Virus record (IMG/VR): IMGVR_UViG_3300038695_000041
Coordinates: 1 to 33,267 of that record
From: a virus
Direction: 5' to 3' (one strand)
DNA length: 33,267 bases
Made by a program: the position numbers and the translations under genes. This document shows, one piece after another, positions 6,438-24,465 of the stretch. Numbering within the stretch: position 1 is the first letter of the stretch; each line of letters begins with the position of its first letter. The notes under the pieces are model-generated. The model had not been told where the DNA came from. It was given only the letters and a program-made list of their open reading frames with translations, and ran no database searches.

Positions 6438-6983
6438 TTATATACAGTCTTTACATTCTTTATAAGCTTTCAATCTAGTAGTTGCTAATTTGAACGCATC
6501 TTTGGCTTGTGGAATTAATCCTTTTCTAGCATTAGCAGAGGCAGCTCTAAGTAAGCCTTCAATAACTAATAGTTTGTTCATTATTTCTGTATTGAATATA
6601 CTATATTCTAAATCTAGCTTTATCCAAACTTCATCTAAATCGTTTTGAAAGTTGTCCTTTTTAAGGTAATTCTTTTCTAGAACTCTTTCTCCATCTTTAC
6701 CTGCTTTAAGCTGTATATTGTATATACCATCAGGTAATTTTTCAGTGTTTTCTTCGCAGTCAATGTGTGAAGATAAGTTCAAACTTAAAGAATTAAAACC
6801 GTTAGTTTTTTCTTTGGCAAATACAGAAACTATAGGTTCATCTCTATTAGGCGTTTTTATTTCTAGATAAGCGGGCATATTTTTTATGACACGCCATCTA
6901 GAATAATCTGCAACTAATAGAATTTCAGGATCCCCTGAGTCTAAAACTTGAAAGTTTAATTTTATTTTACCTATGTCTGACAT
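6438..6983 (-). CDS. putative virion protein, unknown family
   Basis: A 181-residue protein. Residues 1-120 read as a beta-sandwich-like domain (KIKLNFQVLDSGDPEILLVA, LSLNLSSHIDC, GIYNIQLKAG). Residues 125-178 are helical (NKLLVIEGLLRAASANARKG), ending in YKECKDCI with a CxxC-like pair. The order after the lysis genes and directly before fibre genes suggests a baseplate- or tail-linked structural protein. No confident homology from sequence alone. Confidence 0.7.
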   Translation of the reverse strand: MSDIGKIKLNFQVLDSGDPEILLVADYSRWRVIKNMPAYLEIKTPNRDEPIVSVFAKEKTNGFNSLSLNLSSHIDCEENTEKLPDGIYNIQLKAGKDGERVLEKNYLKKDNFQNDLDEVWIKLDLEYSIFNTEIMNKLLVIEGLLRAASANARKGLIPQAKDAFKLATTRLKAYKECKDCI

Positions 6984-7148: not shown

Positions 7149-7640
7149 TTAATTGTTTTTAGATATTTTTTTAAATTTTTCTACTCCTCTAGAACCAAAG
7201 TAAGCTAAACATACAGTTATTAAAAGATTTTTTAATAGTTCTACCCACTCAGGGGCAACTATAAAAGTCTTTATAGAACTATCAAGCATTACAAATATGA
7301 ACATGCAAGCCATTAAAAATGCTAGTACCAGCGGTCTTATATTTTTACTTAGCCAACTATCCGAAGTCATGTCGGCTTCCCATCTCTTTGTAACGTTAAG
7401 CATATCTTGCTTATCCATTTCAATTTCAGCCTGTAGCATTATTTTCTCACTTTCTGTGAGTTCTTCTGTTCCTGCTATTTTATCTGATAACTTTTTAAGT
7501 CCTTCTATCCCTGTAATACTTCCTGCTATGTCTAGTAATCCAGGTGCTACATTTTTACCTTGTTTTACCAACCAACGAAGTGAATCACCGACTCTTGTAC
7601 TTCCATTGCGTTCTTTATATGTTAGTTTATCGTCTGGCAT
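7149..7640 (-). CDS. holin-like membrane protein (GTA holin 3TM type)
   Basis: A 163-residue protein. The cytoplasmic N-terminal part is amphipathic and charged (residues 1-90). It is followed by WEADMTSDSWLSKNIRPLVL, a signature arrangement of the GTA-type holin family. Two hydrophobic segments follow (about 105-125 LAFLMACMFIFVMLD; about 135-152 LLKNLLITVCLAYFGSRG) and then a basic tail. It lies immediately after the peptidase gene with a 1-nt overlap, so membrane permeabilisation at lysis is the likely role. Family assignment is by motif memory; membrane topology is seen directly. Confidence 0.75.
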   Translation of the reverse strand: MPDDKLTYKERNGSTRVGDSLRWLVKQGKNVAPGLLDIAGSITGIEGLKKLSDKIAGTEELTESEKIMLQAEIEMDKQDMLNVTKRWEADMTSDSWLSKNIRPLVLAFLMACMFIFVMLDSSIKTFIVAPEWVELLKNLLITVCLAYFGSRGVEKFKKISKNN

Positions 7641-23426: not shown

Positions 23427-23468
23427 TTTAATTTATTTGGTGGTTATATTTATTATGATTATATTTGC
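23427..23468 (+). promoter_or_regulatory. rightward promoter P1, copy 1 of a 42-bp repeat
   Basis: TTTG (23436-23439), 20-nt spacer, TATATTTG (23460-23467). The whole 42-bp block recurs at 23839-23880 with only a few mismatches, including the upstream TTTAATTTA. It drives the 88-aa gene. Confidence 0.85.
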
Positions 23469-23488
23469 TCACAACAAAAATTAAAACC

Positions 23489-23755
23489 ATGAAAGATTCA
23501 AAACTTAATATACATGAATTTTTTGATGAATTGCTTTTCTTAACGGACGAAAACATTTTTTCAAATATTTACATAGACGAAAATATAGAATTTTTTAAAG
23601 AAATAAATTTATATTTATATGAGCATTATTTAGAAGATAGAATGACTCTAAATTTAGCCTCTAATATTTTAGAAAGTTTCATAAAGTCGATGCTCAAACA
23701 TACTCCAAGTTTACATAATGTATTAAGAGACGATTTTGGAAATATAGAAGAATAA
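23489..23755 (+). CDS. 88-aa acidic early protein, unknown
   Basis: Starts MKDSKLNIHEFFDELLFLTD. I chose the ATG at 23489 because the in-frame TTG at 23465 lies inside the -7 box and could not be transcribed. The protein is acidic and helical, rich in Asp/Glu/Phe/Tyr, with no recognised domain. It is a monocistronic unit with a strong promoter and its own terminator. First position after the divergent promoters suggests an early regulator, anti-host protein or DNA mimic; this is speculation. Confidence 0.7.
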   Translation: MKDSKLNIHEFFDELLFLTDENIFSNIYIDENIEFFKEINLYLYEHYLEDRMTLNLASNILESFIKSMLKHTPSLHNVLRDDFGNIEE

Positions 23756-23762
23756 TTTTTGA

Positions 23763-23783
23763 GTAGTAGTAGTAGTAGTAGTG
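23763..23783. repeat. short (TAG)n trinucleotide tract
   Basis: Seven consecutive AGT/TAG units directly after the stop of the 88-aa gene. The 3' part (TAGTAGTAGTGATTTTT, 23773-23789) resembles the leader motif found before the two major structural genes. Confidence 0.6.
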
Positions 23784-23838: not shown

Positions 23839-23880
23839 TTTAATTTATTTGGTAGCTATATTTATTATTGCTATATTTGC
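23839..23880 (+). promoter_or_regulatory. rightward promoter P2, copy 2 of a 42-bp repeat
   Basis: TTTG (23848-23851), 20-nt spacer, TATATTTG (23872-23879): an exact consensus match. Predicted transcription start is about 23885, immediately before a 7-bp hairpin and with no ORF downstream for about 600 nt. Confidence 0.85.
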
Positions 23881-23884
23881 ATTG

Positions 23885-24412
23885 TGAGAGATATTGTATC
23901 TTTCTAGTAACAACGGTAATCAAACCATTACACCCTTATCAGTCACCTTGAAAAAGTGCATGTGGGGTCAGAAGTCGGGTTAATAATTGCAGGATTTAAA
24001 TAATATCTAAACATAGCGATGAAGTTCTCCCCGATAGTTACGGAAAATTGCCTAAATATAAGCAGGAGGGCACGATAAGACGATACGGACTGAAAAGGGT
24101 AGTATTGCAGTGTGTGGGTGTAAAGAGAAGTCAACGAAATTTCTCAAACGTACAGCTCCTTAGTTAAAGTTTAGGTTGAAATCGCCACTAAGTAATTAGA
24201 GGGTCAATAGATTATGAAAATTTTCTAAAGGGGTTTCCTCTGTCCAACACACAAACACAACAACAGTTTTTCACTCTAACGCATTTTCGGTTTTATACAG
24301 TACTTAACACTACAAGTAGAGGGTACTAAAACGGATATTGTTACAAGCGAAGTTACAGTTTAACGGTGTGTTGCTAACCGACTCTTTGCGGTCTGGGAGT
24401 TTCTATTTTTTA
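23885..24412 (+). ncRNA. candidate large structured non-coding RNA (about 530 nt)
   Basis: The stretch begins right after an exact-consensus promoter and ends at a U-rich tract before the next promoter. The longest plus-strand ATG frame I find is about 19 codons (24019). The base composition looks less A+T-rich than its surroundings. Local pairing I can see: a 5' hairpin GAGAGAT/ATCTTTC (23886-23892 with 23898-23904); GTAAT/ATTAC (23916-23920, 23927-23931); TCGGG/CCCGA (23975-23979, 24030-24034); long-range GTGTGTGG (24110-24117) with CCAACACAC (24244-24252, one bulge); TACTT/AAGTA (24301-24305, 24314-24318). At the 3' end, ACCG/CGGT (24377-24380, 24389-24392) interlocks with ACTC/GAGT (24381-24384, 24397-24400) like a pseudoknot. 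Large phage ncRNAs such as GOLLD and ROOL have similar size and context, but I cannot match this to either. It could instead be an origin or packaging region. Confidence 0.6.
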
Positions 24413-24433: not shown

Positions 24434-24465
24434 TTTGGTATTATGACTAAATATGCTTATATTTA
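24434..24465 (+). promoter_or_regulatory. promoter of the replication operon
   Basis: TTTG (24434-24437), 20-nt spacer, TATATTTA (24458-24465), 23 nt before the helicase ATG. It resembles P1 and P2 (TTATTTGGT at the -33) but diverges in the spacer. Confidence 0.75.

Follow-up and report, generated by a model that had tools for sequence, protein, structure and literature searches.

GOLLD is a 14-mer RNA cage and ROOL is an 8-mer RNA nanocage. Both are phage-borne structured RNAs found near tRNA islands, with a function that is not established; GOLLD members are often longer than 800 nt and ribosomes are reported to have been pulled down with GOLLD (PMC12286853). Here we describe a plus-strand stretch of about 531 nt (23882-24412) in a 33,267-base virus fragment (IMG/VR record IMGVR_UViG_3300038695_000041; the whole fragment is referred to as the window and coordinates are window positions unless a locus is named), located between a small gene, orf96, and a helicase gene. 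The lack of an open reading frame, the existence of homologues and their covariation make it almost certain that the stretch encodes a member of a family of structured non-coding RNAs. As an overall interpretation, we propose that it is probably a structured non-coding RNA outside Rfam, which forms a unit of its own, acts in trans and serves a mobile element as a host-directed accessory.

At gathering score, neither the window nor about 20 loci of the family match any Rfam 15 model, and a search with permissive filters using three of the RNAs gave nothing meaningful. The comparison with GOLLD, ROOL, OLE, HEARO and group I/II introns, which had been suggested in an earlier note made from the sequence of this DNA, is included in this result: the covariance models of OLE, HEARO, group I/II introns and RNase P RNA were not matched and the GOLLD and ROOL models did not reach gathering score with any member searched. 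The note's parallel with GOLLD and ROOL holds for the setting, these RNAs being analogues, but not for relatedness at Rfam thresholds. Similar to GOLLD, the new RNA is phage-borne, structured and hundreds of nucleotides long, and its copy in the Cellulophaga phage phi4:1 also adjoins a tRNA array; it differs in length (about 280-530 nt, compared to the often more than 800 nt of GOLLD) and in its conserved core. ROOL is likewise borne by phages and prophages near tRNA islands, is of similar size and is without a known protein partner (PMC12286853), however, the Rfam ROOL model is unmatched.

A divergent or decayed copy of a known RNA (GOLLD, ROOL, OLE, HEARO, RNase P, transfer-messenger RNA (tmRNA) or a group I/II intron) or a decayed tRNA array would fit the slot, which is the same as that of the phi4:1 tRNA array, and the ROOL-like size. 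This is very improbable in view of the missing Rfam match, of a core that is conserved rather than decayed and of the blank ARAGORN result, neither ARAGORN nor Rfam finding a tRNA or tmRNA in the window region. A published survey of human microbiomes presents structured RNA candidates by the thousand (PMC8040213). The family is new relative to Rfam 15, the candidate lists of PMC8040213 lying outside this comparison.

Homologues and covariation of the core

The conserved 75-nt core of the family occupies 23970-24044 on the plus strand. A covariance model of this core (R1), built from 11 homologues with the window and phi4:1 left out, scores the window at 91.9 bits (E 1e-21); phi4:1 and phi17:2 reach 35.4 bits (E 2.5e-6). 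The window and phi4:1 are not fully independent of the homologues, having guided the first search pattern, but stems were never specified and the later patterns were tightened on the homologues. The window carries the features of the R1 family: the helices Pa, Pb and Pc, an AAUAAU-type loop and the sequence AACAUAGCGRUGA. In Pa, GUCGGG (23974-23979) pairs with CCCGAU (24030-24035); two double changes are already present between the window and locus L036, and the L061 version, GGAGUG/CACUUC, is different at nearly all positions. In Pb, AUUGC (23986-23990) pairs with GCGAU (24016-24020), the 3' strand lying inside the conserved AACAUAGCGRUGA. In 6 of 15 rows U-A replaces a C-G pair of this helix, which also holds an invariant U-G pair; in bacterial copies it reads AUCUGU/ACGGAU, with one extra pair at each side. 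Pc, formed by GGAU (23992-23995) and AUCU (24005-24008), has two-sided changes in all four of its pairs and closes a loop conserved around AAUAAU.

In a structure-blind alignment of the 11 homologues, 100% of the Pa, Pb and Pc cells are paired, 7 of the 15 pairs show two-sided changes and the covariation score is higher than that of any shuffle. With the window, phi4:1, L061, L062 and L066 added, 98.6% of the cells are paired (32-53% in slid controls), two-sided changes occur in 8 of 15 pairs (35 cells; 0 of 500 shuffles) and RNAalifold recovers Pa, Pb and Pc unasked. Outside the core, a marine group of loci provides seven further covarying pairs in three nested stems that follow it. Between the window and L036 (62% identity) five shared helices have at least two double changes, a number reached in 0 of 200 column shuffles (mean 0.79). 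Such strong covariation, both in the core and beyond it in the homologues, supports the structured RNA that the earlier note had put forward as a candidate.

The helix cells contain 45 G-U against two A-C combinations, which shows that the functional molecule is the plus-strand RNA, that is, the strand served by the promoter described below. This asymmetry bears on whether the stretch could be a DNA-level element (a replication origin, packaging or attachment site) conserved as DNA. A location at the divergent junction between gene blocks, seen in the window, phi4:1, L034, L049, L050 and L062, would suit such an element, however, the G-U excess agrees with an RNA made from one strand and is at odds with a DNA cruciform, and the invariant U-G pair of Pb and the promoters directed into the stretch also speak against it. 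We regard a DNA-level role as even less probable than descent from a known RNA.

Least credible is an overlooked protein-coding gene made of short or overlapping frames. The longest plus-strand ATG frame over the core has 19 codons, as the earlier note had stated, and no sense frame is kept in the homologues, the conserved protein frame in relatives that the note named as a refutation not being found. In places there are antisense frames of 40-158 codons, whose resemblance follows from that of the underlying DNA. Against a gene stand the absence of a notable ATG frame in common, indels of 1, 8 and about 25 nt inside the conserved core that break every frame, compensatory changes that would alter the peptide, and the unequal lengths of the annotated frames that overlap the RNA in phi4:1 and phi17:2. 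These frames, gp078 of phi4:1 (L008 7717-7851) and gp080 of phi17:2 (L009 7715-7837), are annotated as hypothetical proteins and are probably not genes.

The homologues belong to about 12 divergent lineages, including phi4:1/phi17:2, and each phage record has a single copy of the RNA. BLASTN of the region and its homologues against 50,697 phage records gave chance and promoter matches only, beyond phi4:1 and phi17:2 themselves, hence ordinary similarity searches miss the family. The close IMG/VR relatives of the window are 99% identical and little informative. The corresponding slot of phi4:1, flanked by the orf96 homologue and the helicase, contains an array of more than 20 tRNA genes; behind it, right before the helicase, come several hundred bases that are mostly unannotated. 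A permissive Smith-Waterman comparison of this slot with that of the window was uninformative; strict local alignment gave one 50-nt block (3-6 of 1000 shuffles), the central hairpin of which, by eye, is GGAU/AUCU in one slot and CCUU/AAGG in the other with similar loops. Degenerate patterns, all leaving the Pc stem bases free, were scanned over IMG/VR. The first pattern returned L022, L023, L028 and L031, all with CUAC/GUAG at Pc, plus coding chance matches, and later patterns added the marine group (L033, L037-L048), L032/L034/L035, L036, L049, L050, L061/L063 and L062. The pattern matches L024, L025, L030, L064, L065 and L067 (the last with 19 bits) are coding and were discarded as chance. 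No R1 match exists in other phages of crAss-like type or of Bacteroidota, namely phi38:1, phi14:2, crAss001, BS-TP2, PTm1 and csAssE-Sib.

Transcription unit, structural parts and genome setting

The stretch is preceded by a Bacteroidota-type promoter, TTTG-N20-TATATTTG (23848-23879, plus strand), an exact match to the consensus as the earlier note had read it; among 330-nt background windows from this contig, just 1% contain a 10/10 match. An exact promoter with a spacer of 20 is located 50-241 nt upstream of the core in six lineages (the window, phi4:1, L036, L023, L022 and L062). Matches of 9/10 in L049, L032, L050 and L077 are unremarkable given the AT-rich background. The ends of the RNA, deduced from the promoter and a T run, place the stretch between the terminator of orf96 (to 23825) and the helicase gene (from 24489, plus strand), the next gene after the RNA. 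The helicase has a promoter-like site of its own, TTTG-N20-TATATTTA (24434-24465, plus strand; a sequence match), which sets it apart, hence the RNA seems to form a transcription unit of its own.

The 5' hairpin of the earlier note, GAGAGATA/TATCTTTC (23886-23904), begins some 4 nt inside the predicted transcript and has 8 base pairs in place of the 7 given there, as predicted by a single-sequence fold. Downstream of the core lies a hairpin CGAUAC/GUAUUG (24081-24107) with UGAAAAGGGUA in its loop; its L036 counterpart is CGUAAC/GUUACG around the same UGAAAAGGGUA, with two double changes. The next hairpin, GAGAA/UUCUC with an AACGAAA loop (24125-24145), corresponds by eye to AGUAG/CUACU around an identical AACGAAA in phi4:1. 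It is followed by a conserved 3' motif, AAAGGGGUUU (24227-24236), identical in L036 and present as AAAGGGGGAU in the marine group, as UAAGGGGUUU in bacterial copies and in an AAAGNRGUGUU-like form in L023/L061/L062. The stretch closes with a putative pseudoknot-like element, ACCG..CGGT interlocked with ACTC..GAGT and followed by a T run, a possible terminator (24377-24412; ACCGACUCUUUGCGGUCUGGGAGUUUC in the window, GACACUCUUUGUCUACAGAGUUUCC in L036), as the earlier note had pointed out. All of these parts are on the plus strand. In the marine group (L039 about 7235-7260 and relatives), a Shine-Dalgarno-like AAAGGGGG and then an ATG with a frame of 3-11 codons are seen at the 3' end of the RNA.

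The AAAGGGG of the 3' motif could be read as ribosome-binding, L061 and L062 being without that form. Binding to the anti-Shine-Dalgarno sequence fails in these two loci and is kept as a lead only; pairing of AAAGGGG with CUCCCC of the core fits the marine group, fails in L062 and is not claimed. The Shine-Dalgarno-like look of the motif would also suit a cis-acting leader, that is, a riboswitch or attenuator of the downstream gene working only within that messenger RNA, all the more as a distance of 15-170 nt often separates the RNA from the start of the next gene, which in the bacterial islands and the marine group follows immediately on the same strand. Nevertheless a leader is unlikely: the downstream genes are unrelated among lineages, the window helicase has the promoter-like site past the RNA and each phage genome carries a single copy. 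The genes next to the RNA are, depending on the lineage, a helicase, an amidase, a tail or structural gene, a PAPS reductase, a NUMOD4-HNH gene or small unknown and island genes. Several lineages have the RNA as the first, or nearly the first, element of a gene block that follows a divergent junction. Since the adjacent genes differ from lineage to lineage, an RNA transcribed as its own unit would act in trans, and we consider this highly likely.

The window proteins are akin to those of phi4:1/phi17:2 (42% for a structural protein, 54% for the helicase), and terminase and portal belong to PHROG families 6681 and 6547. Genes left of 23345 are on the minus strand and those from 23465 on the plus strand. 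The earlier note had placed the stretch at the early/late switch point of a phage genome and had given gaps of 1-10 nt between genes. The stretch is indeed near the divergent junction but is not the whole of it, as orf96 (23465-23755, plus strand), with its own promoter (23436-23467) and a terminator to 23825, intervenes between the minus-strand block and the RNA; coding is dense, most neighbours overlapping or being separated by less than 80 nt. Over about 42 bases the orf96 promoter and that of the RNA are 88% alike, which suggests co-regulation or duplication. A run of TAG repeats (23764-23781) directly follows the orf96 stop, ahead of the terminator. In a more distant relative (L007 1860-1480, minus strand) the slot after orf96 holds different stretches that look structured, are rich in terminators and do not match R1. 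In phi4:1 (L008 about 6630-6915), two unannotated tRNA-like genes with long inserts separating their halves lie between the tRNA array and the RNA.

Bacterial copies, neighbouring genes and proposed role

The RNA is also present, rarely, in bacterial chromosomes: 3 of 395 genomes in a class-wide draw of Bacteroidia, three more in two families, 1 of 395 in a phylum-wide draw and 0 of 300 in a control class (that of a Lysinibacillus). Of two patterns scanned over 84,980 bacterial and archaeal genomes, one found nothing and the other a single true match, the Bacteroidia contig behind L066/L077. Related small genes follow the RNA in four bacterial copies (L075, L090, L091 and L092, from genomes G071, G917, G932 and G938), and resolvase or large serine recombinase genes occur in L075, L091 and L092. 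The chromosomal islands form a family made up of the RNA, a protein of about 85 residues, an 81-residue HTH_17/excisionase-like protein, often a 166-residue protein, cargo, a resolvase and a large serine recombinase. Both L076 and L091 have the RNA at the 3' end of glmS, a site also used by Tn7, and the L091 island appears to have disrupted the last glmS codons.

The serine recombinases of the bacterial elements, two of these elements sitting at the 3' end of glmS, are one argument for an RNA that belongs to a mobility system, as the partner of homing endonucleases or serine recombinases aiding its own spread in the manner of an IS110 bridge RNA or an intron. The other is that homing endonucleases adjoin the RNA in unrelated phages: GIY-YIG directly upstream in L034 (815-1615) and L062 (915-1742), NUMOD4-HNH directly downstream in L023/L028/L031 (L031 6752-7117). 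However, no such gene adjoins the RNA in the window, phi4:1, L049, L050 or the marine group, the nucleases are of different types, homing endonucleases are often found next to conserved sequences anyway, the flanking genes are uninterrupted, leaving nothing to splice, and the Rfam intron and HEARO models are unmatched. HEARO/IscB omega RNAs resemble the new RNA as large structured RNAs beside nuclease genes in some lineages; they differ in that no Rfam HEARO match and no adjoining IscB/TnpB gene were seen here, the nuclease type being variable or absent. The bacterial copies resemble IS110 bridge RNAs as non-coding RNAs that sit close to the end of a mobile element with a recombinase, but bridge RNAs go with IS110 DEDD recombinases, while the recombinases here are serine recombinases and none is near the phage copies. 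We consider a mobility function slightly less likely still than a cis-acting leader.

Several observations weigh against the interpretation preferred here, a trans-acting, host-directed structured RNA. The phi4:1 match to R1 is limited to the inner 50 core positions, and the TTTG/TAnnTTTG promoter is not recognisable in the marine group, L061 and the bacterial islands, so that the RNA may there belong to a longer transcript. The transcript itself is a prediction from sequence. The minimum free energy of the window RNA is not better than that of dinucleotide shuffles (z +1.25 for the plus and +0.48 for the minus strand), hence the structural evidence comes from the homologues, and the complementarities that the earlier note had seen are by themselves no evidence. 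A search for shared neighbour proteins in 18 loci found phylogenetic neighbours only and no constant partner. GroES was tried as such a partner, as it is present in the window, phi4:1 and the marine group; Pfam finds none in other lineages.

As no constant protein partner is common to the lineages, what is left is a particle made of RNA only or a complex formed with some host component, and the host-directed action is argued by elimination. We tentatively propose, with slightly less than even confidence, that the RNA is an accessory of mobile elements that would act on the host cell while infection proceeds or the element is maintained. The folded RNA or a ribonucleoprotein may bind a host component, serving host take-over or counter-defence, by analogy with what is supposed for GOLLD and ROOL. 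More speculatively, and rather doubtfully at present, the family could be a new class of large functional RNA (a ribozyme, an RNA-only assembly or the core of a ribonucleoprotein) common to crAss-like and other Bacteroidota phages and to serine-recombinase islands of their hosts, possibly as a shared tool, or as a weapon where phages and satellite-like elements are in conflict.

Only a few large RNAs are known from phages, the examples being GOLLD and ROOL. The family described here explains a gap left without annotation in a published genome of crAss-like type, and its covariance model is usable for annotating other genomes. With a strongly conserved core over about a dozen mobile-element lineages, including a cultured and tractable pair, phi4:1 and Cellulophaga baltica, as well as bacterial islands, it makes the role of such RNAs open to genetics.
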